Assembly (NCBI GenBank): GCA_947455605.1
Contig: CANGOX010000001.1
Span: 62,001-126,000, forward strand
Direction of reading: 5' to 3'
Length of the DNA stretch: 64,000 nucleotides
Origin: Chitinophagaceae bacterium
GTDB lineage: Bacteria; Bacteroidota; Bacteroidia; Chitinophagales; Chitinophagaceae
Position numbers and translations under genes: made by a program. The notes under the pieces are model-generated. The model saw nothing but the letters and a program-made list of their open reading frames with translations, did no database searches and had not been told where the DNA came from. Of the stretch, positions 17,698-62,172 are shown one piece after another. Within the stretch, counting starts at the first letter, position 1; the number at the start of each line of letters is the position of its first letter.

Positions 17698-17702
17698 AAA
17701 TC

Positions 17703-17730
17703 GTGAGTCGTCAGTCGTGAGTCGTGAGTA
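17703..17730 (+). repeat. Heptad array (gtgagtc type), left arm
   Basis: Four 7-base units in register: gtgagtc, gtcagtc, gtgagtc, gtgagta, six bases after the stop of the GGGP-type synthase. The reverse-complementary arm is at 17825-17845, with a strong terminator hairpin between the arms. Confidence 0.8.
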
Positions 17731-17762
17731 GAGAGATAGAGATTCAATCATATTTTGAAAAT

Positions 17763-17797
17763 AAAAATGGTCAAGTGCAAAACACTTGACCATTTTT
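17763..17797. terminator. Two-way intrinsic terminator
   Basis: A perfect 15-bp stem (17763-17777 with 17783-17797) and a five-base loop, A-rich on the left and T-rich on the right, so it can terminate both the GGGP-type synthase and the convergent M28 peptidase gene. Confidence 0.92.
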
Positions 17798-17824
17798 ATT
17801 TTCTATTTTCTTTCTTCTCTCAGG

Positions 17825-17845
17825 ACTCACGACTGACTACTCAGG
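17825..17845 (+). repeat. Heptad array (actcacg type), right arm
   Basis: Three 7-base units, actcacg, actgact, actcagg, which are the reverse complement of the units at 17703-17730. With them it forms a larger inverted repeat around the terminator. Confidence 0.75.
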
Positions 17846-17863
17846 ATTAAATGCTCACGAAAT

Positions 17864-19207: not shown

Positions 19208-19259
19208 TCTGTACTGTTTGAGGGATGAGGCTTTAGGGATAGAATAGTATTTATAAAGC

Positions 19260-19318
19260 GTGAGTCGTGAAACGTGAATCGTGAGTAAAGACTCACGACT
19301 GACGATTCACGACTCACG
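19260..19318. repeat. Heptad-repeat palindrome (gtgagtc / actcacg)
   Basis: Left arm gtgagtc, gtgaaac, gtgaatc, gtgagta; three-base loop; right arm actcacg, actgacg, attcacg, actcacg. Register is exact, and the arms pair with few mismatches. It ends ten bases before the response-regulator stop codon, so it sits between that gene and the downstream peptidase gene. Confidence 0.9.
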
Positions 19319-19327
19319 ATAATTTCA

Positions 19328-24186: not shown

Positions 24187-24280
24187 GGGTCAATAGCTTT
24201 AGCTGCAAAGAAAACCGAAACAGGGCTAAAATAGTGGGTGATAAGGGAATAGTTATCCACCAATAAGCTTGGGGGAATTC

Positions 24281-24350
24281 GTAAGTCGTGAATCGTGAGA
24301 CGTGAGTAGGCCTTCCGGTCTTACTCACAACTCACGACTAACGACTCACG
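24281..24350. repeat. Heptad-repeat palindrome (gtaagtc / actcacg)
   Basis: Left arm gtaagtc, gtgaatc, gtgagac, gtgagta; a 14-base loop; right arm actcaca, actcacg, actaacg, actcacg. It ends five bases before the mscL stop codon and shares its heptamer type with the arrays at 17703 and 19260. Confidence 0.88.
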
Positions 24351-26545: not shown

Positions 26546-26549
26546 GACC

Positions 26550-26619
26550 GGTTTATTGGTTTACTGGTTTACTGGTTTACCGGTACAAATAAACCAGTAA
26601 ACCAATAAACGGATAAACT
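26550..26619. repeat. Octad-repeat palindrome (ggtttact / aataaacc), copy 1
   Basis: Left arm ggtttatt, ggtttact, ggtttact, ggtttacc; a short spacer; right arm aataaacc, agtaaacc, aataaacg, gataaact. It is in strict 8-base register and overlaps the frr stop codon by two bases. A related copy lies on the other side of frr at 27230-27291. Confidence 0.88.
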
Positions 26620-27181: not shown

Positions 27182-27229
27182 ATGATTTTTTTTACTGGGG
27201 CGAAATTAATGAATAGTTGTGAGTTTCTT

Positions 27230-27291
27230 GGTTTACCTGCGTATTCGTTTATTGGTATAAATAAACCGGTAAACCCATAAACCGATAAACC
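27230..27291. repeat. Octad-repeat palindrome (ggtttacc / gataaacc), copy 2
   Basis: Left units ggtttacc, tgcgtatt, cgtttatt; right units aataaacc, ggtaaacc, cataaacc, gataaacc in 8-base register. It is the same family as the array at 26550-26619. It lies upstream of both frr and the divergent transketolase half-gene, so it overlaps their promoter space. Confidence 0.82.
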
Positions 27292-27327
27292 TACAACCCT
27301 TATCTTCGCTGCCATAAAAATATTGCT

Positions 27328-29516: not shown

Positions 29517-29522
29517 TCAATT

Positions 29523-29595
29523 ATCGGATTTGCGGATTACGGATTTGTGGATTGCGATCTGATAATTCGCAAATCCGTAATCCGCTAATCCGTTA
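29523..29595. repeat. Inverted tandem repeat (cggatt units)
   Basis: Left arm has four ggatt units spaced 8, 7 and 8 bases apart; the right arm has aatccg units at similar spacing, forming the reverse complement. It fills the gap between rbfA and the downstream permease gene, ending one base before the rbfA stop codon. Confidence 0.8.
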
Positions 29596-29596
29596 A

Positions 29597-29968
29597 TTAT
29601 TCCTTTTCGGGTGTTTTGTCTTCTTCTATTTTTTTAAAGATCTCTTCCATCTTGAACACATAATCGAGTGTGTCATCGTGGTAAAAATGCAGAACGGGGA
29701 TGCGGCGTAATTGGTGTTTTACCCTATCGGCCAGCTCTTTCTTGATCTCCCAGGCCCTGGATTCGATGGTTTTCATGGCAGCAGCAGCATCTTTTACCTG
29801 AAAAAGGCTCAGGTAGATACGGGCTTCCAGCAGGTCGGGCGTAACTTTTATGGAAGAAATGGATACCATTCCGCCATCGATCATACCCAGACCTAAGCGC
29901 CTGAAAATATCATTCAATTCTTCCTGCAGTGCGCCTGCCACCTGTCTTTGGCGTTTTCCCTCCTCCAT
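29597..29968 (-). CDS. rbfA: Ribosome-binding factor A
   Basis: A 123-residue 30S maturation factor with the single KH fold. The signatures are RQRQVAGALQEELNDIFRR at the start, VSISSIKVTPDLLEARIYLSLF, and the late LRRIPVLHFYHDDTLDYVFKMEEIF, which matches the family C-terminus. The C-terminal tail is charged. It shares strand with the downstream LolC/E-type permease, which is a frequent Bacteroidota gene order, though a repeat palindrome lies between them. Confidence 0.96.
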   Translation of the reverse strand: MEEGKRQRQVAGALQEELNDIFRRLGLGMIDGGMVSISSIKVTPDLLEARIYLSLFQVKDAAAAMKTIESRAWEIKKELADRVKHQLRRIPVLHFYHDDTLDYVFKMEEIFKKIEEDKTPEKE

Positions 29969-33039: not shown

Positions 33040-36000
33040 TTATCCTTTTTTGGTAACTACCACTTTCAACAGGATCTCATTGATTTCCACTTCAGTGCCG
33101 GTTTCTAACCGGGGCACCCAATCAATGGTATCTGCCAAAATTTCGCGGCAAATATAGTCGTTATATTTAATAATGGATGGCTTCAGCTGGGGGCTCTCAA
33201 GCACGGTCACGAATATACGGTCTGTGAGGTCAAAACCGCTGTCTTTTCTGATATTCTGTACACGGTTTACAAATTCCCTTGCCTCCCCTTCCTGCTTTAA
33301 TTCATCCGTAAGCGTAATATCCAGTGCCACTGTAAGGCTGCCCTTACTGGCCACACTCCAACCCGGAATATCTTCAGCCACAATATCTACATCGGTCAGG
33401 CCTATCGTAACTTCCTCACCGTCAATGGTTAATGCATAATTTCCCTCTTTTTCCAGCTTTGTAATATCCAGCTGACTGAACTGAGCTATGGCAGCACTTA
33501 CCGCTTTCATTTTACCACCCAATCGGGTACCCAGGGCCTTGAAATTGGCTTTGATCTTTTTGCTGATCACGCCCTCTGTTTCGGTGATATATTCCAGCTC
33601 TTTCACATTTACTTCCGCTTTGATCAGGTCTTCGATCTTCTGCAACTGGTCTTTCATTTCCGGATTCAGTACCGGGATCATGAGTTTCTGAAGCGGCTGA
33701 CGAACCTTGATATTCACTTTTTTACGCAGAGAAAGCACCAGCGAACAGGTATCCTGTGCCAGCTGCATCCTTTCCTCCAGAGAACGATCGATCACAGATT
33801 CATCGGCTACCGGAAAATCGGCATGGTGAATGGACCTTACCTGAAATTTACCCGTTACCGCATTCAGATTACGGAAAACCGCATCGCTAAAGAACGGAGA
33901 GATCGGAGCCATTAATCGTACGATGGTTTCCAGACAGGTATATAATGTCTGATATGCACTGATCTTATCCTGCTCGTACTCGCCCTTCCAGAAACGGCGG
34001 CGGCAGAGACGAACATACCAGTTGCTCAGGTGTTCATCCACAAATTCTTCAATAGCACGACCTGCCAGTGTTGGTTCGAAATCGTCCATTGAACGGGTTA
34101 CATCCTTGATCAATGTATTGAGCGAAGAAAGGATCCATCTGTCGATCTCCGGCCTTTCATTGAGCGGAATAGCGGCTTCTTTAAAAGCAAATCCATCTAC
34201 ATTGGAATACAGGGCAAAGAACTGGTACGTATTATATAGTGTTCCAAAGAATTTACGTTGTACTTCCTGAATACCCGCCAGATCAAACTTAAGATTATCC
34301 CAGGGAGATGCATTGGTGATGAGGTACCAGCGAGTAGCATCTGCCCCATATTTTTCGATGGTTTCAAAAGGGTTCACCACGTTGCCGAGGCGTTTACTCA
34401 TTTTGTTTCCGTCTTTATCCAATACTAAACCATTACTTACCACAGCTTTGTACGCAACACTGTCGAACAGCATAACACCCAAGGCATGTAAAGTATAGAA
34501 CCAGCCACGGGTTTGGTCAACGCCTTCTGCAATAAAATCTGCCGGGAAGGCTTCGCCTTTATCAATCAGGTCTTTATTTTCAAAAGGATAATGCCATTGG
34601 GCATAAGGCATCGCACCACTATCGAACCATACATCTATCAGATCGGCCACACGTTTCATCGGCTTGCCGGATGCACTTACCAGAATGATATCATCTACAA
34701 AGGGTTTATGCAGATCGAGGATGCCTTCGTGTAAATAATTTTTATTGGTATCACCGCCCAACACTTCACTGGCTTTGCGGATACCTTCATTCAGTTCTGC
34801 AATGGACCCGATACAAACTTCTTCATCGCCATCTTCTGTTCTCCAAACCGGTAAAGGCGTTCCCCAATAGCGGCTGCGGCTGAGGTTCCAGTCTACCATG
34901 TTCTCCAGCCAGTTTCCAAATCTTCCTTCACCGGTTGATTTCGGTTTCCAGTTGATGGTCTTATTCAGTTCCACCATACGATCCTTTACTGCTGTGGTTT
35001 TGATAAACCATGCATCCAACGGATAATATAAAATGGGTTTATCGGTTCTCCAGCAATGCGGATAACTGTGTTCGTATTTTTCTACTTTGAAAGCGCGGTT
35101 CTCTTTTTTCAGTTTTACGCTGATGTCAACATTCACATCCACATAATCCTTATCGTCTTTATAATTCTTTACATATCGATTACTGAATTCGCCAAGGCCA
35201 TCTACAAATTTTCCCTGTTTGTCAACCATCGTTAAAATACCGATATTGAATTTCTTACCTACCCGATAGTCATCTGCACCAAATGCCGGTGCCGTATGCA
35301 CAATACCGGTACCGTCTTCAGTGGTAACAAAATCACCTGTAATAACTCTGAAGGGTCTGGAGTCTGGAGTCTGGAGTCTGATAGCTTCCAAAGAGTTTGC
35401 TTCGTATGGCAATAATTGCTCGTATTCACATTCTTCAATCTTTGACCCTTTGAATTCAGTCAATATTTTCCAGGGGAGAATCTTTGCTTTTTCACTGTAT
35501 CCGTCAAAATCCCCATTTTCTCCTTCGGGTTTGAAATACTTACCCAGTAAGGCTTTCGCCAGTATCACATTTACCGGAAGATGTGTATATGGATTGAATG
35601 TCTTAGCCAGTACATAATCAATATTAGGTCCAACTGTTAATCCCAGGTTAGATGGCAAAGTCCATGGTGTAGTGGTCCAGGCAATAAAGAAAACTTCCTC
35701 ATCAGCGGCCGCATCAAACAGGAACAGGCTTTTTGTATTCTTTACCGCTTTGAACATGGCCACTGCAGATGTGTCTTTCACATCTTTGTAAGTACCGGGC
35801 TGGTTCAGTTCATGCGAACTCAAACCTGTTCCGGCAGCAGGTGAATAGGGTTGTATGCTTACGCTCTCATACAGGAACCCTTTCTTGTACAATTCACTTA
35901 AGATCCACCAGAGTGTTTCAATGTATTTATTATCGAAAGTGATATAGGGATCGTTCAGGTCAACCCAGTAGCCCATTTTATTGGTGAGATCATCCCATTT

Positions 36001-36402
36001 ATCCTTATAACGCAATACGGCTTCGCGGCATTTTTTATTGTATTCTTCAACCGATATTTTCTTGCCGATATCTTCTTTGGTGATACCCAGTTCTTTTTCT
36101 ACACCCAGTTCAATAGGCAGTCCGTGTGTATCCCATCCCCCCTTTCTTTTTACCTGAAAACCCTGCATGGTCTTGTAGCGGCAAACCATATCCTTCAGGG
36201 TACGCGAGATCACATGGTGAATACCCGGTAACCCGTTGGCACTTGGCGGGCCTTCATAAAACACAAATGGCTTCCTGCCTTCACGCAGCGAAACACTTTT
36301 TTCAAAAGCCTGTTCTTTGCTCCATTTGGCCAATATTTCCTGTTCTATTGCCGGGAGATTGAGCCCGGAGAATTCTGGGTATTTAACGCTCATAGCCTTC
36401 AA
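33040..36402 (-). CDS. ileS: Isoleucyl-tRNA synthetase
   Basis: A 1120-residue class I synthetase charging tRNA-Ile. The HIGH motif is GIHHVI (near residue 61) and the KMSKR motif DGNKMSKRLGNVVNPF (near residue 690). The CP1 editing domain (about 170-560) includes TTPWTLPSNLGL and GTGIVHTAPAFG. The long form with an HxxH-type eukaryote-like C-terminus is normal in Bacteroidota. Residues about 341-350 (IRLQTPDSRP) are encoded by a four-unit heptad repeat and lie in the editing domain just before FRVITGDFV, so they may be an insertion. A zinc-finger tail was not seen. Confidence 0.97.
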   Translation of the reverse strand: MKAMSVKYPEFSGLNLPAIEQEILAKWSKEQAFEKSVSLREGRKPFVFYEGPPSANGLPGIHHVISRTLKDMVCRYKTMQGFQVKRKGGWDTHGLPIELGVEKELGITKEDIGKKISVEEYNKKCREAVLRYKDKWDDLTNKMGYWVDLNDPYITFDNKYIETLWWILSELYKKGFLYESVSIQPYSPAAGTGLSSHELNQPGTYKDVKDTSAVAMFKAVKNTKSLFLFDAAADEEVFFIAWTTTPWTLPSNLGLTVGPNIDYVLAKTFNPYTHLPVNVILAKALLGKYFKPEGENGDFDGYSEKAKILPWKILTEFKGSKIEECEYEQLLPYEANSLEAIRLQTPDSRPFRVITGDFVTTEDGTGIVHTAPAFGADDYRVGKKFNIGILTMVDKQGKFVDGLGEFSNRYVKNYKDDKDYVDVNVDISVKLKKENRAFKVEKYEHSYPHCWRTDKPILYYPLDAWFIKTTAVKDRMVELNKTINWKPKSTGEGRFGNWLENMVDWNLSRSRYWGTPLPVWRTEDGDEEVCIGSIAELNEGIRKASEVLGGDTNKNYLHEGILDLHKPFVDDIILVSASGKPMKRVADLIDVWFDSGAMPYAQWHYPFENKDLIDKGEAFPADFIAEGVDQTRGWFYTLHALGVMLFDSVAYKAVVSNGLVLDKDGNKMSKRLGNVVNPFETIEKYGADATRWYLITNASPWDNLKFDLAGIQEVQRKFFGTLYNTYQFFALYSNVDGFAFKEAAIPLNERPEIDRWILSSLNTLIKDVTRSMDDFEPTLAGRAIEEFVDEHLSNWYVRLCRRRFWKGEYEQDKISAYQTLYTCLETIVRLMAPISPFFSDAVFRNLNAVTGKFQVRSIHHADFPVADESVIDRSLEERMQLAQDTCSLVLSLRKKVNIKVRQPLQKLMIPVLNPEMKDQLQKIEDLIKAEVNVKELEYITETEGVISKKIKANFKALGTRLGGKMKAVSAAIAQFSQLDITKLEKEGNYALTIDGEEVTIGLTDVDIVAEDIPGWSVASKGSLTVALDITLTDELKQEGEAREFVNRVQNIRKDSGFDLTDRIFVTVLESPQLKPSIIKYNDYICREILADTIDWVPRLETGTEVEINEILLKVVVTKKG
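35355..35382. repeat. Four-unit heptad array inside ileS
   Basis: gtctgga, gtctgga, gtctgga, gtctgat on the plus strand, in strict 7-base register. The same heptamer forms intergenic arrays at 58418-58487 and 61515-61595. It is translated from the minus strand as roughly IRLQTPDSR. Confidence 0.85.
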
Positions 36403-37162: not shown

Positions 37163-37258
37163 GAGGTAAATTAAAATTAAAAATTAGAAATTAAGAATTA
37201 AAAATTACCTGCGATGCTTCCGATGTTTGTCTTATGACCAACATAGGAGGGGGGGGAA

Positions 37259-39744: not shown

Positions 39745-40725
39745 ATGAACAAGGTTTTACGAATAGGCACCCGCGACAGTCAGTTGGCTGTTTGGCAGGC
39801 TACATTGGTACAGGAGCAACTGAAAAACAATGGCATTGCCACCGAACTCGTGTACATGAAAAGCGATGGCGATGTAGATCTGGTAACGCCATTATATGAA
39901 ATTGGTGTACAGGGTATTTTTACAAAAACATTAGATGCTGCCTTACTAAGTAACCGCATAGACCTTGCCGTTCATTCCATGAAAGATGTACCTACCCAAT
40001 TGGCAAAAGGGATACAACAGGCTGCGGTTTTGGAGAGAGCTTCTTATAAAGATATTTTGGTTTTAAAAAACGAATTAAGTGATATAAGTGATGCGTTGGG
40101 TATTGTGAATGGTGAATGGTCAATGCTGAATAATGAGTCATTGACAATTGACCATTCACGATTAACCATTGCTACCAGCAGCATCCGCCGCAAAGCACAA
40201 TGGCTGAACCGGTATCCCAACCATACGTTGGAAAACCTGCGGGGCAATGTAAATACACGATTACGCAAAGTGAGTGAGAGTAATTGGGATGGCGCCATTT
40301 TTGCGGCAGCGGGATTGGAACGTATCGGCCTTCGCCCGGAAAACTCAATAGAGCTCGACTGGATGCTGCCCGCGCCGGCACAAGGAGCCATTATGATTGT
40401 TTGCAGAGAAGATGACCACGAAACAAAAACTGCCCTGGGATTACTGAATGATCCAGCAACCGCTTTATGTACCTGTATTGAAAGAGACTTTTTAAAGACA
40501 TTATTGGGCGGATGCGCTACTCCCATCAGTGCTTTGGCAGAATGGAAAGACGGATTTGTAACTTTTAGAGGACATATTTTATCGGTTGATGGAAAAGAAA
40601 AGATGGAAACCTCATTTCACAAAGCTGCTTTGCAATGTGGCGATCTGGGCAGAAAAGCCGCAGAAGACCTATTAGCCAGGGGTGCAGATAAAATTGTCAA
40701 TGCCATTCGCAATGCCGGAGCATAA
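39745..40725 (+). CDS. hemC: Hydroxymethylbilane synthase with an in-frame heptad-palindrome insertion
   Basis: A 326-residue enzyme joining four porphobilinogens into hydroxymethylbilane. Start GTRDSQLAVWQA, catalytic region LAVHSMKDVPTQL, Arg-rich substrate site ATSSIRRKAQW and LRGNVNTRL, and the dipyrromethane-anchoring Cys in LLGGCATPISA are all present. Residues 121-141 (from VNGEWSML to SRLT) come from a nine-heptad palindromic array and separate the KDILVLKNEL strand from ATSSIRRK, where other HemC proteins have only a short turn. The active site itself is intact, so the enzyme is probably functional. It starts one base after the hemA stop. Confidence 0.96.
   Translation: MNKVLRIGTRDSQLAVWQATLVQEQLKNNGIATELVYMKSDGDVDLVTPLYEIGVQGIFTKTLDAALLSNRIDLAVHSMKDVPTQLAKGIQQAAVLERASYKDILVLKNELSDISDALGIVNGEWSMLNNESLTIDHSRLTIATSSIRRKAQWLNRYPNHTLENLRGNVNTRLRKVSESNWDGAIFAAAGLERIGLRPENSIELDWMLPAPAQGAIMIVCREDDHETKTALGLLNDPATALCTCIERDFLKTLLGGCATPISALAEWKDGFVTFRGHILSVDGKEKMETSFHKAALQCGDLGRKAAEDLLARGADKIVNAIRNAGA
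40105..40167. repeat. Nine-unit heptad palindrome inside hemC
   Basis: Units in register: gtgaatg, gtgaatg, gtcaatg, ctgaata, atgagtc, attgaca, attgacc, attcacg, attaacc. The last units are reverse complements of the first. Sixty-three bases equal 21 whole codons, so the reading frame is kept and no stop codon is created. Confidence 0.9.
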
Positions 40726-41422
40726 ACTACAAATACTATGCACCAGGCCTGTTGATGAATCAAGAATAGAAGAGGCAAATCAGAAAGACATTCTTCTGGA
40801 TGTATTACCGTTCATAGAAACCGAAGCCATTCAAACCATAGAAGTACAGCAGGAAATAGAATGGGCTTCTGTACAGGAGGCCGTAGTTGTATTTACCAGT
40901 ATGAATGCCGTGGAAGCTGTTACCGAAATGCTGGACGGACATATACCTGAATGGCGTATTTTCTGTATGGGTTTCAAGACCAAAGAATTGATCACAACCT
41001 ATTTTGGAGCGGAGGCAATAGCAGGCACCGCTGATAATGCAGATGAACTGGCAAACGAGATCATAGAGCAGGAAGATCCGGAAGAAGTGATCTTCTTCTG
41101 TGGTAACCAACGCAGGGATGAACTACCGGGAAAACTTGAAAAACATCGGATCACTGTAAACGAGATCGTTGTTTATGAAACCCTGGCTGTAGAACATTCT
41201 GTTGAAAAGGAATATGATGCGGTTCTGTTTTTTAGTCCGAGTGCCGTAGAAAGTTTTTTCAAAAAGAACAAACTAATTGCCAGGACCATTGTTTTTGCCA
41301 TTGGTAATACCACAGCTAAAACGGTTGCAAAGTTCTGCAGCAACAAAGTGATCATTAGCAAGTTGCCTGGAAAAGATGAATTGGTAACTCAGGCATTGGA
41401 CTATTTTTCAAAGAATCATTAA
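40712..41422 (+). CDS. hemD: Uroporphyrinogen-III synthase
   Basis: A 236-residue enzyme that closes and inverts ring D of hydroxymethylbilane to give uroporphyrinogen III. HemD proteins share little sequence; this call rests on the two-domain pattern (QILCTRPVDES start, VVFTSMNAVEAV, VLFFSPSAVESFF and AIGNTTAKTV) and on its place between hemC and hemE. The start is uncertain: GTG at 40682, ATG at 40700 and ATG at 40712 are in frame. The last is chosen because it places the first beta-strand at the N-terminus; it overlaps hemC by 14 bases. Confidence 0.88.
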   Translation: MPEHKLQILCTRPVDESRIEEANQKDILLDVLPFIETEAIQTIEVQQEIEWASVQEAVVVFTSMNAVEAVTEMLDGHIPEWRIFCMGFKTKELITTYFGAEAIAGTADNADELANEIIEQEDPEEVIFFCGNQRRDELPGKLEKHRITVNEIVVYETLAVEHSVEKEYDAVLFFSPSAVESFFKKNKLIARTIVFAIGNTTAKTVAKFCSNKVIISKLPGKDELVTQALDYFSKNH

Positions 41423-41475
41423 AAATATTTTATCAAATAAGTGACTATATGAGATAGTGATCTCCCACAAAGGAT

Positions 41476-41503
41476 ACTCACTACTCACTACTCACCACTC
41501 ACG
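41476..41503 (+). repeat. Heptad array (actcact type) directly before hemE
   Basis: actcact, actcact, actcacc, actcacg in register, ending six bases before the hemE ATG, where a ribosome-binding site would be expected. No Shine-Dalgarno sequence is seen. Confidence 0.85.
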
Positions 41504-41509
41504 AATCAT

Positions 41510-42538
41510 ATGTTACAAAACGATCTGATACTAAGAACCCTTCGCGGCGAACAAACAGAAAGAACACCGGTATGGATGATGCGCCAGGCCGGCCGTTATT
41601 TACCGCAGTATATGGTGTTGCGGGAAAAATATGGCTTCTTTGAAAGATGCCAGACACCGGAACTGGCCTGTGAGATCACTATTCAACCCGTAGATATTGT
41701 GGGAGTTGATGCTGCTATCCTTTTCTCTGATATTCTGGTCGTACCACAAGCGATGGGTCTGGAAGTACAACTGGTAGAAAGCCAGGGCCCTTACTTGCCT
41801 GATCCGGTTAAGAATTTTAAAGATCTGGTGCGTGTGCGTGTTCCGGATGTTCAGGAAACATTAGGCTATGTTTTTGAAGCGATCAAACTCATCAAAAAAG
41901 AATTGAATGGCCGCGTGCCATTGATCGGTTTTGCAGGTGCTCCATGGACATTATTGTGTTATATGGTACAGGGAAAAGGATCAAAGACCTTTGACCAGGC
42001 CAAAGTATTCTGCTACACACAACCGGAGCTTGCACACCAGTTATTACAAATGATAACCGATACTACCATTGCCTACTTAAAGGCACAAGTAAAAGCCGGT
42101 GCCGATATTGTTCAGATCTTTGACAGCTGGGGTGGATTATTGAGTCCGGATGATTTTGAAACCTATTCTCTCCAATATATTCGCCAGATCGTAGCGGCAT
42201 TGAAAGAAGAAGTACCTACGATCATTTTTGCAAAAGGTGCCTGGCATAGTCTGGAAGAAATGGCCGCAACCGGTGCTCAAGGTTTAGGTATTGACTGGTG
42301 CATTAAACCACAGCTGGCCAGACAGATAGCAGGCAACAACGTAACGCTGCAGGGGAATTTTGATCCGGCTAAATTATTATCACCCATTCCGGTGATCAAA
42401 AAAGAAGTTGAAACCATGTTGGCTGCATTCGGACCCGGAAGACATATTGCCAATTTAGGACACGGCATCATTCCCAATGTTCCTGTAGATCATGCAAGGG
42501 CATTTGTAGATACCGTGAAAGAATACCGTCATAAATAA
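41510..42538 (+). CDS. hemE: Uroporphyrinogen decarboxylase
   Basis: A 342-residue enzyme that removes the four acetate carboxyls of uroporphyrinogen III to give coproporphyrinogen III. Signatures are [15 protein letters not shown] near the N-terminus (substrate Arg residues), [19 protein letters not shown] with the catalytic Asp, and [17 protein letters not shown]. The C-terminal GLGIDWCI and GNFDPAKL complete the TIM barrel. Its stop is 21 bases before hemF. A heptad array occupies the hemD-hemE gap. Confidence 0.97.
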
Positions 42539-44476: not shown

Positions 44477-44530
44477 CACGCAGAGGCGCAAAGGCGCAAT
44501 TTATTTACTGCGCCTTTGCGCCTCTGCGTG
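44477..44530. repeat. Perfect 22-bp inverted repeat between hemB and hemL
   Basis: Arms 44477-44498 and 44509-44530 are exact reverse complements, built from gcgcagaggcgcaaagg-type units, with a ten-base loop. Related sequences occur at about 28262-28290, 31955-31974 and 62110-62172. In the middle of the heme operon it may act as an attenuator or mRNA stabiliser. Confidence 0.9.
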
Positions 44531-46947: not shown

Positions 46948-48021
46948 ATGAAAAGATTAACCCTTAGGATTAGTATTATCATCTCTGTTTTTTGCATGTT
47001 CATGGCATGTAAGAAGGAAATGAGTATTGAAAATGGCGGATTTGGTGGCACAGCACAGGGCGAACTGGTAGACTCACTGGGCAATTGCAAATCATCTACC
47101 GTAATGGGTGATTATAAAGTGGATACCGCTTTGGTAACTTCCGCTAACTATTCGCTTATTAATGTGAATTTTACGGCACAGGGTAAATATAAGATCTACA
47201 CAGATACCGTAAATGGTATGTGGTTTCTCGATTCAGGCTTTGCCATCAGTACCGGAGCCAATGTGATCAAACTGAAAGGATATGGCAAACCCATCCTTCC
47301 CAAGACCACCACTTTTACTATCTATTTCAATAACAATGTCTGCTCTTTCTCTGTAAGTGTAAACGGCAGTGCTGTTAGCAGCGGTGGTGGCGGTAGTACG
47401 GGAACAGGTACGGGCGGTGATTATTTCCCTACAACAACGGGCTCCAGCTGGACCTACCAATACATTCCTAAACTGGGTACCATTGATACGTTCAGGGTTT
47501 CCGTGGCGCAAGGACAGATCGTAAGAGATACCTTGAGTTACGCGCAATTCGGAACCTCTTTATTGGATACTTTCTATTTTGCCAAAGACGGTAAAGGCAC
47601 TTACTATGCTTTAAGCTCAGTTGATTTTGATTATACTTTCCTCTTCGATTCGATCCCTAATTTCTTTATCAGCTATCCTTTCCTGAAAGAGAGTGCAGCC
47701 GTGGGAGATAGTTGGGAAACCATTGAATACGGTACCGTTAAACTGGTATCGGGCACCACCACCGAATACGGAAAGGCCAAAGCTGTTTTTACCGTAGTAT
47801 CTAAAAACACCACTACCTATACTATTGGCGGTAAGACCTATTCGGATGTGATCAATATGAAACGGGAGATCAAATTCATTCCTAACGGAACAGGTGCCGT
47901 GTATCGAACCCTGTTAACAGGTAATTCCTATTATGCCAAAGGATTTGGATTGATCGATCAGGTATTTGCCACTACACCAGCACAAAGCGCTTCGCTATAC
48001 CGAACGCCAACTATTAAATAA
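46948..48021 (+). CDS. Predicted lipoprotein of unknown function
   Basis: A 357-residue exported protein with a signal peptide and lipobox ending FMAC (Cys21), so it is probably lipid-anchored at the cell surface or periplasm. The first part (about 35-140) has repeated beta-strands with two Cys residues (GNCKSSTV and NNVCSFSV). A Gly/Ser/Thr-rich linker (SSGGGGSTGTGTGG) leads to a second beta-rich domain (YFPTTTGSSWTYQY onward). I do not recognise a family. The stop codon overlaps the stem of the following terminator. Confidence 0.75.
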   Translation: MKRLTLRISIIISVFCMFMACKKEMSIENGGFGGTAQGELVDSLGNCKSSTVMGDYKVDTALVTSANYSLINVNFTAQGKYKIYTDTVNGMWFLDSGFAISTGANVIKLKGYGKPILPKTTTFTIYFNNNVCSFSVSVNGSAVSSGGGGSTGTGTGGDYFPTTTGSSWTYQYIPKLGTIDTFRVSVAQGQIVRDTLSYAQFGTSLLDTFYFAKDGKGTYYALSSVDFDYTFLFDSIPNFFISYPFLKESAAVGDSWETIEYGTVKLVSGTTTEYGKAKAVFTVVSKNTTTYTIGGKTYSDVINMKREIKFIPNGTGAVYRTLLTGNSYYAKGFGLIDQVFATTPAQSASLYRTPTIK

Positions 48022-48086
48022 TCAAACCTCATACATAAAAAAGCCCTGCTGAAAATGCGGGGCTTTTTTATGTATGAGGTTTGATT
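48020..48086. terminator. Two-way terminator with a perfect 27-bp stem
   Basis: Arms 48020-48046 and 48060-48086 are exact reverse complements around a 13-base loop. The inner part is a GC core flanked by A and T runs, so it works in both directions. The left arm begins inside the lipoprotein stop codon; the right arm ends four bases before the lspA stop. Confidence 0.95.
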
Positions 48087-54914: not shown

Positions 54915-55018
54915 AGGCCAAAACTAACTGTTCTTCCTCAATCACCCTATGGGTGTTGGTTATTTGAAATGGTTTTATGGATTTTATCACATTTGGCATC
55001 CCATTAGAAACCTGCCAC

Positions 55019-55498
55019 ATGAAATTAAAACTCAGCCTGCTTATGTTCTGTCTTTTGGGTATTGGCGTATTCAGCCATGCTCAGGATAGCAAAACACCAC
55101 CACCCCCTCCTCCTCCGGTTAAACCGGCAAAACCAGCAGTCATCATGAGTGATGATGCCATTCCGGTTACAGTAAAGAGTAGCAAGAATGGGCATTGGAA
55201 AGTGCCGCCACCACCGCCGAAAGTTGAGGCAGTTAGATTTTCGCCGCCCAAAATTGTAAGGGATGCAGAAAAAGCACCACCACCGCCGCCGCCAAAAGCC
55301 GAGGTTGTAAAATTTACTCCTCCAAAAATTGTAAAGGATGCAGAAAAAGCACCACCACCGCCGCCGCCAAAAGCCGAGGCTGTAAAATTTACTCCTCCAA
55401 AAATTGTAAAGGATGCAGAAAAAGCACCACCGCTACCGCAGGCCAAACCAAAGGTTCCTATAAAAACTGATGCTCCGCCAAAGGATCCAAAAGCTTAA
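55019..55498 (+). CDS. Exported proline-rich protein with 25-residue repeats
   Basis: A 159-residue protein of unknown function. The start at 55019 is preferred over 54977 because it begins directly with a signal peptide (MKLKLSLLMFCLLGIGVFSHA). The mature part is Pro/Lys-rich, with 25-residue units that run DAEKAPPPPPPK and on to FTPPKIVK. Two units are almost identical at DNA level (55262-55336, 55337-55411), with diverged copies on either side. It is divergent from gldF, and its stop is directly followed by a MITE-like element. It is probably periplasmic or cell-surface; the repeats may span the wall. Confidence 0.72.
   Translation: MKLKLSLLMFCLLGIGVFSHAQDSKTPPPPPPPVKPAKPAVIMSDDAIPVTVKSSKNGHWKVPPPPPKVEAVRFSPPKIVRDAEKAPPPPPPKAEVVKFTPPKIVKDAEKAPPPPPPKAEAVKFTPPKIVKDAEKAPPLPQAKPKVPIKTDAPPKDPKA
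55262..55435 (+). repeat. 75-base tandem repeats inside the proline-rich gene
   Basis: Unit 1 is 55262-55336 and unit 2 is 55337-55411; they differ at very few bases, and a third, diverging copy starts at 55412. The length is a multiple of three, so copy changes keep the frame. Confidence 0.88.
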
Positions 55499-55716: not shown

Positions 55717-56067
55717 TTACACTGCAAAACTCTCACCACAACCACAACTCCTGCTCGCATTCGGATTGTTGAAATAAAAACCCTTTCCGTTCAATCCATC
55801 AGAGAAATCCAGTTCTGTATTTACGAGGTATAAAAAGCTTTTCAGATCAGTAACTACTTTAATGCCGTTGTCTTCAAACACCTGGTCCATCGGTTTTACT
55901 TCATTGTCAAAGTCAAGCTTATAACTTAACCCTGAGCAGCCACCGCCTACCACACCTACCCTCAGGAAATAAGAATCATCTCCTAATACGCCGGCTTCTT
56001 CCATTAACTGGAGGGCTTTCTTTTTGGCTTTATCGCTTACGTAAATACTGTTTTCTGTTGCAACCAT
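55717..56067 (-). CDS. A-type iron-sulfur carrier protein (IscA/SufA/ErpA family)
   Basis: A 116-residue carrier that receives nascent Fe-S clusters and passes them to apoproteins. The three ligand cysteines are visible: Cys in VGGGCSGLSYKL and the CxC-type pair in SRSCGCGESF at the C-terminus. Length fits the family. It is the last gene of an iscS-iscU-iscA run on the minus strand, separated from iscU by a heptad palindrome. Which A-type subfamily it is cannot be decided here. Confidence 0.95.
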   Translation of the reverse strand: MVATENSIYVSDKAKKKALQLMEEAGVLGDDSYFLRVGVVGGGCSGLSYKLDFDNEVKPMDQVFEDNGIKVVTDLKSFLYLVNTELDFSDGLNGKGFYFNNPNASRSCGCGESFAV

Positions 56068-56072
56068 ATTAA

Positions 56073-56134
56073 TTAGTAGTTAGTAATTAGTAGTTAGTAA
56101 TTGCTCATTACTAACTACTAATTATTAATTAAAT
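56073..56134. repeat. Heptad-repeat palindrome (ttagtag / attacta)
   Basis: Left arm ttagtag, ttagtaa, ttagtag, ttagtaa; a six-base loop; right arm attacta, actacta, attatta, attaaat. It fills the gap between iscU and the iscA-like gene. Confidence 0.85.
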
Positions 56135-56559: not shown

Positions 56560-56672
56560 TAATTTGAAAATTTGAAAATATGCGGATTTGAAAATGAGGA
56601 AGATCTGTTTTATTTACACTGTGCGAATCTGAACTCATTTTCAAATTTTCAAATCTGCACATTTTCAAATTT
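56560..56672. repeat. Inverted repeat of tttgaaaat units between iscS and iscU
   Basis: Left arm 56560-56598 holds tttgaaaa units about nine bases apart; right arm 56635-56672 holds the reverse complement. It has the same placement as the heptad palindromes but a longer period and is more degenerate. It overlaps the end of iscS by two bases. Confidence 0.7.
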
Positions 56673-58016: not shown

Positions 58017-58418
58017 ATGTTAAAGATCGAGCATATAGGTATGGCAGTTAAGGACCTTTCGGTCTCTATTCCCCTTTTTGAAAAGCTGTTGAATACCCCT
58101 TGCTACAAGACAGAAACCGTTGATTCTGAAAATGTAAACACGGCTTTTTTTCAAAAGGGTGACTCCAAGATCGAATTGCTGGAAAGTATCGACCCGGATG
58201 GTGTGATCGCCCGTTTTATTGAGAAAAAGGGGGAAGGCATGCATCATATAGCTTTTGAAGTAGCCGATATCAAGGCCGAAATGGACCGTTTAGTAAAAGA
58301 AGGCTTTGTGCTGTTGAACACCGAACCCAAGAAGGGCGCTGATAATAAGCTGGTCTGTTTTCTTCATCCAAAGGGCACGAATGGGGTTTTGGTGGAGCTT
58401 TGTGAGGAGATGAAATAG
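58017..58418 (+). CDS. mce: Methylmalonyl-CoA epimerase
   Basis: A 133-residue vicinal-oxygen-chelate protein that interconverts the two isomers of methylmalonyl-CoA in the propionate pathway. The start MLKIEHIGMAVKDL contains the first metal His, and EGMHHIAFEVADI and GVLVELCEE hold the others. Length and pattern fit Mce closely. Partner mutase genes are not nearby. Its stop codon TAG shares its last base with the first unit of a heptad array. Confidence 0.93.
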   Translation: MLKIEHIGMAVKDLSVSIPLFEKLLNTPCYKTETVDSENVNTAFFQKGDSKIELLESIDPDGVIARFIEKKGEGMHHIAFEVADIKAEMDRLVKEGFVLLNTEPKKGADNKLVCFLHPKGTNGVLVELCEEMK

Positions 58419-58487
58419 TGTGGAGTGTGGAGTGTGGAGTCTGGAGTCTGAAGTTTGGAGTTTGGAGTTTGGGGTTTGGAGTTTGGA
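58418..58487 (+). repeat. Ten-unit heptad array (gtgtgga / gtctgga / gtttgga)
   Basis: Ten units in exact register: gtgtgga three times, gtctgga, gtctgaa, gtttgga twice, gtttggg, gtttgga twice. It is single-armed, and overlaps the mce stop codon by one base. Confidence 0.9.
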
Positions 58488-58493
58488 GTAAGG

Positions 58494-61500: not shown

Positions 61501-61602
61501 GAAGTTAGAAGTTGGGAGTCTGGAGTCTGGAGTTGAAGAAAGTTTTACTCCAGACTCCAGACTTCTAACTTCAGACCCCAGACCCCAGACTCCAGACTTT
61601 TT
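61501..61602. repeat. Heptad-repeat palindrome (ggagtct / actccag)
   Basis: Left arm gaagtta, gaagttg, ggagtct, ggagtct, ggagttg; spacer 61536-61546; right arm actccag, actccag, acttcta, acttcag, accccag, accccag, actccag, acttttt. All are in 7-base register. It lies between two convergent genes and ends in Ts. Confidence 0.9.
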
Positions 61603-62109: not shown

Positions 62110-62172
62110 ACGCAGAGGCGCAATGGCGCAGTTTAAACCGAGCTAAACTGCGCCTTCGCACCTATGCGTGCA
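62110..62172. repeat. Inverted repeat of the gcgcagaggcgca family
   Basis: Arms 62110-62136 and 62144-62172 pair imperfectly around the centre accgagc. It is the same family as the perfect inverted repeat at 44477-44530 and lies between the YcxB-like and DUF6807 genes. Confidence 0.78.

Follow-up and report, generated by a model that had tools for sequence, protein, structure and literature searches.

In-frame heptanucleotide palindromes in HemC and other conserved enzymes of Chitinophagaceae

The hemC gene of the window (the whole 64,000-nucleotide stretch of Chitinophagaceae DNA analyzed here) carries within its reading frame an imperfect palindrome of nine 7-base units, which is one copy of a genome-wide class of 7- (or 8-) base-unit arrays, many of them hairpin-forming. 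We consider it probable that heptad hairpins of this class spread by templated copying, and that those found in genes are the survivors, namely in-frame, stop-free events in permissive loops. The copying mechanism itself is one that we infer from a comparison of species; no copying events were observed.

The heptad palindrome in hemC

39745–40725, plus strand: hemC, which encodes a 326-aa hydroxymethylbilane synthase and contains the array (ORF call; NCBIfam TIGR00212 above cut-off)
40105–40167, plus strand: nine-heptad imperfect palindrome, HemC residues 121–141 (unit reading, stem, shuffles, fold)
40102–40125, plus strand: left arm, made of GTGAATG units; GTCAATG in third place keeps TGA out of the reading frame
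40139–40162, plus strand: right arm, ATTGACA ATTGACC ATTCACG; 88% complementary to the left arm

The 326-aa ORF scored 280.6 bits against the curated family profile TIGR00212, for which the cut-off is 164, and thus qualifies as hydroxymethylbilane synthase. The units of the array read GTGAATG, GTGAATG, GTCAATG, CTGAATA, ATGAGTC, ATTGACA, ATTGACC, ATTCACG and ATTAACC, and these 63 bases form codons 121–141, encoding the peptide VNGEWSMLNNESLTIDHSRLT. The sequence reading and TIGR00212 together confirmed the original prediction of nine in-frame 7-base units at these residues. The predicted palindrome held as an overall mirror, but it is imperfect: the arms are 88% complementary over 24 nt and 80% complementary when 30-nt arms are taken, and the fifth unit (ATGAGTC) is the turn and hardly a repeat.

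RNA folding of positions 40098–40175 gave −33.3 kcal/mol against −14.7 ± 2.8 kcal/mol for shuffles (z −6.6). The heptad periodicity of the HemC loop exceeded that of 300 shuffles of synonymous codons and of 300 shuffles of codon order (p 0.003 in both cases), and the stem gave p 0.020 and p 0.003, respectively, against the same shuffles. Amino acids alone do not account for the heptads or the stem, and a chance origin of the array was ruled out by the period scan with simulation, the codon shuffles and the z score of the fold.

The third unit carries GTCA; GTGA at this point would place a TGA in the VNGEW frame. Among 30 of the 44 matching loci of this genome, there were six places with the pattern GTGAATG-GTGAATG-GT[GC]A. 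In HemC and an epimerase the last four bases are GTCA and the frame is open, whereas the remaining four places read GTGA and offer no open frame on that strand in any of its three phases, although on the opposite strand two of them (L172 and L176) fall within long stretches uninterrupted by stops.

The array had also been claimed to be tolerated as a surface loop. In a predicted structure of HemC (mean pLDDT 89), residues 121–130 and 131–140 had pLDDT values of 57 and 56, against 79 in the block before the insert and 94 in the block after it; values were below 50 at residues 128–136, and the blocks at 41–60 were low as well. In an alignment with E. coli HemC (1pda), the insert stretch was a gap. 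Residues 121–141 are thereby predicted to be a flexible surface loop; the low-confidence loop of the model supports the claim, and the array is in frame.

Arrays of the same class in the window and genome

Arrays of this kind had been thought to lie otherwise between genes in the window. The intergenic arrays do belong to the same class, but the one at 35351–35383 lies in frame within ileS. No strand is assigned to the arrays listed after it.

35351–35383, minus strand: in-frame GTCTGGA/ACTCCAG heptads in ileS (33043–36402, minus strand), residues about 340–350, RLQTPDSRP
2651–2736: heptad palindrome of the AACGCTT type, intergenic, convergent ORFs on either side
17699–17848: GTGAGTC-type heptad arms, intergenic, arms 90 nt apart
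19259–19319: GTGAGTC/GTGAATC palindrome, intergenic
24280–24350: GTGAGTC-type palindrome, scored as intergenic
26547–26618: palindrome of 8-base units (GGTTTACT), intergenic
27223–27296: array of 8-base units (ATAAACCG), divergent ORFs on either side
29519–29598: palindrome of 7/8-base units (CGGATTTG)
37168–37207: AAATTAA heptads, single arm
41473–41508: TACTCAC heptads, single arm, between ORFs 40682–41422 and 41510–42538
56067–56131: TAATTAG/TAGTTAG heptad palindrome, fills its gap
56561–56671: palindrome of 8-base units (ATTTGAAA)
58414–58493: GTTTGGA/GTGTGGA heptads, single arm, about 10 units
61501–61600: GTCTGGA palindrome, fills the gap between convergent ORFs

Several arrays, such as those at 26547–26618, 56067–56131 and 61501–61600, occupy nearly the whole gap between genes. 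Other repeats were also seen. Inverted repeats with CGCAGAGGCGCAAAGGCGCA or a close variant lie at 44477–44530 and 62110–62169 of the window, and an 8-base-unit version of this type was found at L131 17108–17188. The ORF at 54977–55498 contains three 75-bp tandem repeats (55214–55431) encoding proline-rich units (PPPPPPKAE-VKFTPPKIVKDAEKA). A heptad-free hairpin at 48020–48086 (30 nt, 97% complementary) directly follows the ORF 46948–48021 and is possibly a terminator.

A strict scan of 464 kb of the genome gave 37 period-7 arms, 13 period-8 arms and 2 period-9 arms, with none of periods 5, 6 or 10–13, and one first-order Markov simulation of each record (464 kb) yielded no arrays. A second, looser scan of 864 kb returned 73 rows of period 7, 35 of period 8 and 5 of period 9, as well as 10 rows for periods 5, 10, 11 and 12 together, which counts against a clean restriction to 7 and 8. 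Recurring unit types were GTGAATG, GTGAGTC, GTCTGGA/GTTTGGA, GTCCATG, TAATTAG and GGTTTACT, among others.

Intergenic clusters made up 89 of the 113 found by a looser scan of 864 kb, with simple ORF calls serving as gene calls, although gaps account for only about 10% of the sequence. For a comparison with intrinsic terminators, which combine a hairpin with a T run where genes end, clusters were counted by gap type: there were 29 per 93 convergent gaps versus 60 per 402 other gaps (Fisher p 0.0005 with clusters treated as gaps); measured against the share of gap bases, the excess gave a p of only 0.045. Ten period-7 and two period-8 rows of the 864 kb lay well inside ORFs of at least 200 aa; the 11 ORFs concerned include those at L211 and L217.

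Of the 395 genomes sampled from the phylum, 28 contained one particular unit, GTGAATGGTGAATG, and five of these (G000, G094, G459, G272 and G291) had it in more than 10 places. The reversed control pattern GTAAGTGGTAAGTG was itself repeated in G180 and G185 (10 and 14 places); thus other heptad units are abundant in those two genomes.

Loops of HemC and other enzymes in relatives

Candidate in-frame arrays were judged by eye. Genes matched to families and containing in-frame heptads encode IleS, UvrA, ArgS, IcmF, methylmalonyl-CoA mutase and ADP-heptose epimerase; further hosts are an alpha/beta hydrolase, an RsmF-type methyltransferase, saccharopine dehydrogenase, an RsmB/F methyltransferase and, with a short array, an ABC transporter ATPase. 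The in-frame heptads of LipA lie N-terminally, before the family match, and the start of LipA is uncertain. ACTCCAA heptads were also seen in frame in FtsK (L141 10145–10172), between the membrane and motor domains. A candidate at L135 15680 turned out not to be in frame.

Five genes (HemC, alpha/beta hydrolase, IleS, UvrA and ArgS) were compared with those of relatives; outside HemC, a loop was scored as heptads when at least 13 of 16 period-7 positions matched. In-frame palindromes are present in HemC, the hydrolase and ArgS, and one arm only in IleS and UvrA.

For HemC, 123 distinct sequences were obtained from 130 loci after seven duplicates were dropped. The stretch from R-A-S-x-x-D to R-R-K-A spans 31–38 residues in most of them versus 54 in the HemC of the window. 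Most of the HemC examined, E. coli 1pda among them, have about 20 residues fewer in this segment. Shuffle tests were run on the 48 sequences of at least 55% identity, the window's included. Heptads exceeded 300 codon-order shuffles in 19 of these 48 loops, again counting the window's; 17 of the 19 also had p ≤ 0.05 against synonymous shuffles, and 13 also had a stem at p ≤ 0.02, all p values being uncorrected for multiple tests. The remaining six lacked a significant stem, and a stem at p ≤ 0.02 was present in four heptad-free loops.

The units at the HemC site differed between species. GTGAATG was found in L116, L118, Flavisolibacter longurius (L025) and Cnuella takakiae (L032), GTGAGTG/CTCACGA in L108 and L114, GGACCAT in L120, L123, L125 and L117, AATTCAA in the right arm of L110, and CAGTTTT in L038, a Niabella MAG. 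The loops of L126 and L020 carry an unrelated repeat, CGTCATCCCGAGCGCAGCCGAG. The carriers of this repeat (L126, L020/L006) are Sediminibacterium magnilacihabitans and G010; the HemC of L126 is identical to that of S. magnilacihabitans DSM 22423 (L028), and the L126 genome is placed in the genus of the window.

The sequences placed nearest to the HemC of the window in the tree, L105 and L111 (support 92/80), had no heptads in the loop. Three genus members (L003, L004 and L130) have 30-aa loops without heptads, and therefore the length of the HemC loop varies for other reasons too. The original prediction asked whether relatives lack the segment. Most HemC do have it short, but other Chitinophagaceae carry heptads there, so it is no private recent insertion.

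The opposite case would be that relatives at all distances keep the same residues with free codon choice, which would make the segment an ancient protein feature, with the DNA repeats as a by-product of a real motif of the family's HemC, a reading that we regard as very improbable. It is partly borne out within the family: the left-arm motif N-x-[EQ]-W recurs with changed codons, and with weak heptads or none, in L106, L113, L115, L121 and L030, where it looks like a relic kept by protein selection. Amino-acid selection may thus act on part of the loop. At greater distance the pattern fails, since the proteobacterial and flavobacterial HemC examined lack the segment. Furthermore, heptads beat synonymous shuffles in the HemC of the window and 16 other loops, relatives have quite different peptides at the HemC site, and the same peptides appear in unrelated enzymes. 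Codon identity showed no clear difference between the inside and the outside of the loop (14/19 versus 86/188 for L116; 3/12 versus 87/196 for L115).

The alpha/beta hydrolase has a 117-nt heptad palindrome in frame (L131 1317–1434). Its residues 64–100 have no counterpart in 4uhh, query residue 63 aligning with chain residue 69 and query residue 101 with chain residue 70. In the 20 of 110 matching genomes of the genus that were compared, 8 loci scored as heptads and 11 had only 9–36 nt. Four of the eight had GTCTGGA/GTTTGGA-type units (G000, G091, G150 and G033), three had GTGAATG-type units (G078, G063 and G104, the last with a right arm of CTCACG units), and G119 had weaker heptads. The G063 peptide, IVNGEWSIVNRAEDSLTIDHSPFT, closely resembles the HemC insert of the window, although the enzymes are unrelated. 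The hydrolase loop of G093 (L228) is filled with a doubled ATTCACCTCCGAAAGGAGTCC repeat instead of heptads.

The ileS array of the window involves no length difference from 28 of the 29 relatives compared. The IleS segment had the same length in 29 of the 30 genus members taken from 146 matching genomes, and only four of the 30 had heptads (G000, AIRLQTPDSRPFRV; G103; G033; G111). These scored 13–16, versus at most 7 in the other 26, which have ordinary codons, e.g. AIKEITPDAKPFRV. On the tree, G070, the sister of G103, and G136 and G138, the sisters of G111, lack IleS heptads. The IleS codons were rewritten without an indel, whichever the direction.

UvrA and ArgS were sampled in 20 chosen genomes, and 19 matched in each case. 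The UvrA alignment comprised 18 loci and excluded copies with an identity of about 48%, among them the sole match of G117. Seven of the 18 had heptads (ACTCCAA, ACTCCAG, ACTCACG or ACTCACC units), all 42 nt long, and the heptad-free stretches of G070, G136 and G079 were also 42 nt. Heptad and non-heptad, or different-unit, versions of IleS and UvrA are of equal length, which indicates overwriting beyond insertion only. Thus, the original description of the array as inserted stands in part, since in IleS and UvrA heptads replace codons at constant length.

ArgS had heptads by score in 6 of 19 genomes: ACTCCAA in G000, ACTCCCA/CCAGACT in G082, GTGAATG palindromes in G104, G063 and G093, and TCCATGG in G123. 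A seventh, recognized by eye, was G150 (score 12), with GTCTGGA on the opposite strand and the same length as G000; G091 and G033 also scored 12 and were set aside as non-arrays.

Unit sharing within genomes was quantitated as canonical 8-mers common to the loops of the five genes, giving 191 versus 62.3 with the genomes shuffled (maximum 131 of 2000; 160 comparisons). When the set was thinned to 16 genomes, the values were 130 versus 39.3 (p 0.00025). The 16 representatives were hand-picked; close relatedness was the reason to exclude G104, G078, G093 and G106, and others (G117, G060, G064, G105, IleS-only genomes) were also left out. G063 and G123 are still fairly close, and relatedness is controlled only roughly. 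Without G123, p was 0.00025 for the sum and 0.0095 for pairs sharing at least three 8-mers (0.001 with G123). The HemC and ArgS loops of G123 are alike in their TCCATGG units, and 18 8-mers are common to UvrA and the hydrolase in G091. The genome of the window is the exception, with GTGAATG in HemC and ACTCCAA/G in the other four genes.

A stem of 14 or more was present in 38 of the 113 clusters, about a third. In a mirror test with re-optimized centre, the stem sum was 773 versus 634 (maximum 669 of 200), and 36 of the 38 clusters exceeded their own mean. We relied on this test; one with a fixed centre (21 arrays, 445.5 versus 307.9) favored the observed value. On trimmed arms the test was weak, with 1 of 17 arrays at p < 0.05 alone and sums of 361.5 versus 303.6. 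In palindromic arrays, the arms mirror each other by unit order.

Origin of the arrays and comparison with known systems

Constant-length replacement, mirrored arms and unit sharing are the observations to be explained together, and templated copying joins them best. The arrays would arise and be renewed by slippage in 7-base steps, by foldback copying of one arm off the other, and now and then by transfer of sequence from one locus to another where the two match over a short stretch. Within genes, selection would keep the frame, avoid stops and retain arrays in permissive surface loops. In HemC, an ancestral array would have been kept, rewritten or lost across Chitinophagaceae, presumably without contributing to haem synthesis. 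A process comparable to the proposed inter-locus copying would be short-patch double illegitimate recombination (SPDIR), which would produce clusters of substitutions taken from another part of the genome through short matches. It is a serious possibility, leaning to the doubtful side, that intragenomic templating is ongoing and overwrites short stretches, coding ones included, with the current heptad flavor, either at constant length or as a mirrored insert. If this were so, loops of essential enzymes would be repeatedly rewritten by repeat DNA.

The strongest rival is local slippage alone, with growth and homogenization in place, no copying between loci, and shared units due to mutational bias. 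Paired +7/−7 slips would fit the constant-length replacement of units, and an earlier survey, as cited in a passage of PMC4679880, reported that in most of its genomes no long simple repeats were more abundant than heptanucleotides. Slippage alone, however, gives neither a mirrored second arm nor unit sharing between unrelated genes, and we consider it unlikely. It is rather improbable that the arrays are a discrete mobile palindromic element, Rickettsia-palindrome or MITE-like, inserted as a block by a transposase: units and lengths vary by locus, and by species at one locus, and the constant-length replacement in IleS and UvrA is unlike block insertion, even though the clean 37-residue excess in the hydrolase, the short or empty sites in relatives and the near-alike peptides (VNGEWS...HSPFT) in HemC, hydrolase and ArgS would all suit such an element.

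That the hairpin serves as a functional RNA element in the hemC mRNA, as its fold z of −6.6 might suggest, is highly improbable, given that L105 and L111, nearest to this HemC in the tree, lack the heptads; a known Rfam RNA was rejected as its identity, as the window contained no Rfam match at the gathering threshold. An assembly artefact, conceivable for a 214-contig draft genome, was dismissed, as the class is also present in two named isolates, Flavisolibacter longurius BT320 and Cnuella takakiae RG1-1, and in G123, whose genome is a single contig.

Turnover is fast enough to leave different repeats at the same codons among species of one genus. The arrays offer a natural series for studying how bacteria copy repeats, what sets the seven-base step, and by what route new sequence enters enzyme loops. 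They also serve as a warning: the length and composition of a loop in such enzymes can be a product of copying at the DNA level rather than of protein selection.

To our knowledge, repeat DNA translated in housekeeping proteins has been known mainly from Rickettsia; here the units are very simple and lie in several core enzymes of Bacteroidota. Among the matches listed in open-licence PMC, no prior description of translated heptad palindromes in Bacteroidota core genes was found. The heptanucleotide repeats of cyanobacteria known as STRR were reportedly described by Mazel in 1990, and a case inside the RNase P RNA gene is said to have been reported by Vioque in 1997. STRR are 7-bp tandem units between genes with the capacity to form hairpins, according to the account in PMC2670836. 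The present arrays, with tandem 7-bp units at many loci per genome, intergenic positions and hairpin potential, are alike in kind, and differ in that one genome has several unit flavors, the arms mirror each other, and some copies lie in frame within conserved Bacteroidota proteins.

TAACTGA heptamers, which likewise form arrays spread sporadically across phyla, occur in Beggiatoaceae, Cyanobacteria and some Bacteroidetes, with one set of two within purC; as PMC4679880 presents them, they comprise one unit in direct repeats, save one indirect, and in the genome examined there most of them lie a short way upstream of a start codon; its text does not use the word ‘palindrome’. The GGGAATC/GGGGAYT heptamers of Xanthomonas and Nostoc form arrays near gene ends, some of them intragenic; they differ in being of the G-quadruplex type, and the part of PMC4692102 devoted to them describes no mirrored arms. 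A palindromic amphipathic repeat coding sequence from diverse microbes is, by the description in PMC2996958, a palindromic repeat that codes, and the likeness is one of that description only.

A further comparison, already drawn in the original prediction, is with Rickettsia palindromic elements, whose palindromic repeat DNA is found in frame in unrelated metabolic genes; as outlined in PMC10969869, they are about 150 bp long and form families in which the peptide is conserved. The comparison holds for the outcome, an in-frame palindrome in unrelated protein genes (here HemC, alpha/beta hydrolase and ArgS), and not for the element, since units differ from locus to locus. The HemC array is 63 bp, and its units differ by locus and species, in contrast with a conserved element of about 150 bp. 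Thus, the arrays work like Rickettsia palindromic elements without being a Rickettsia-type element, and are distinguished from them by simple heptads, differing units at the same codon positions and constant-length overwriting.
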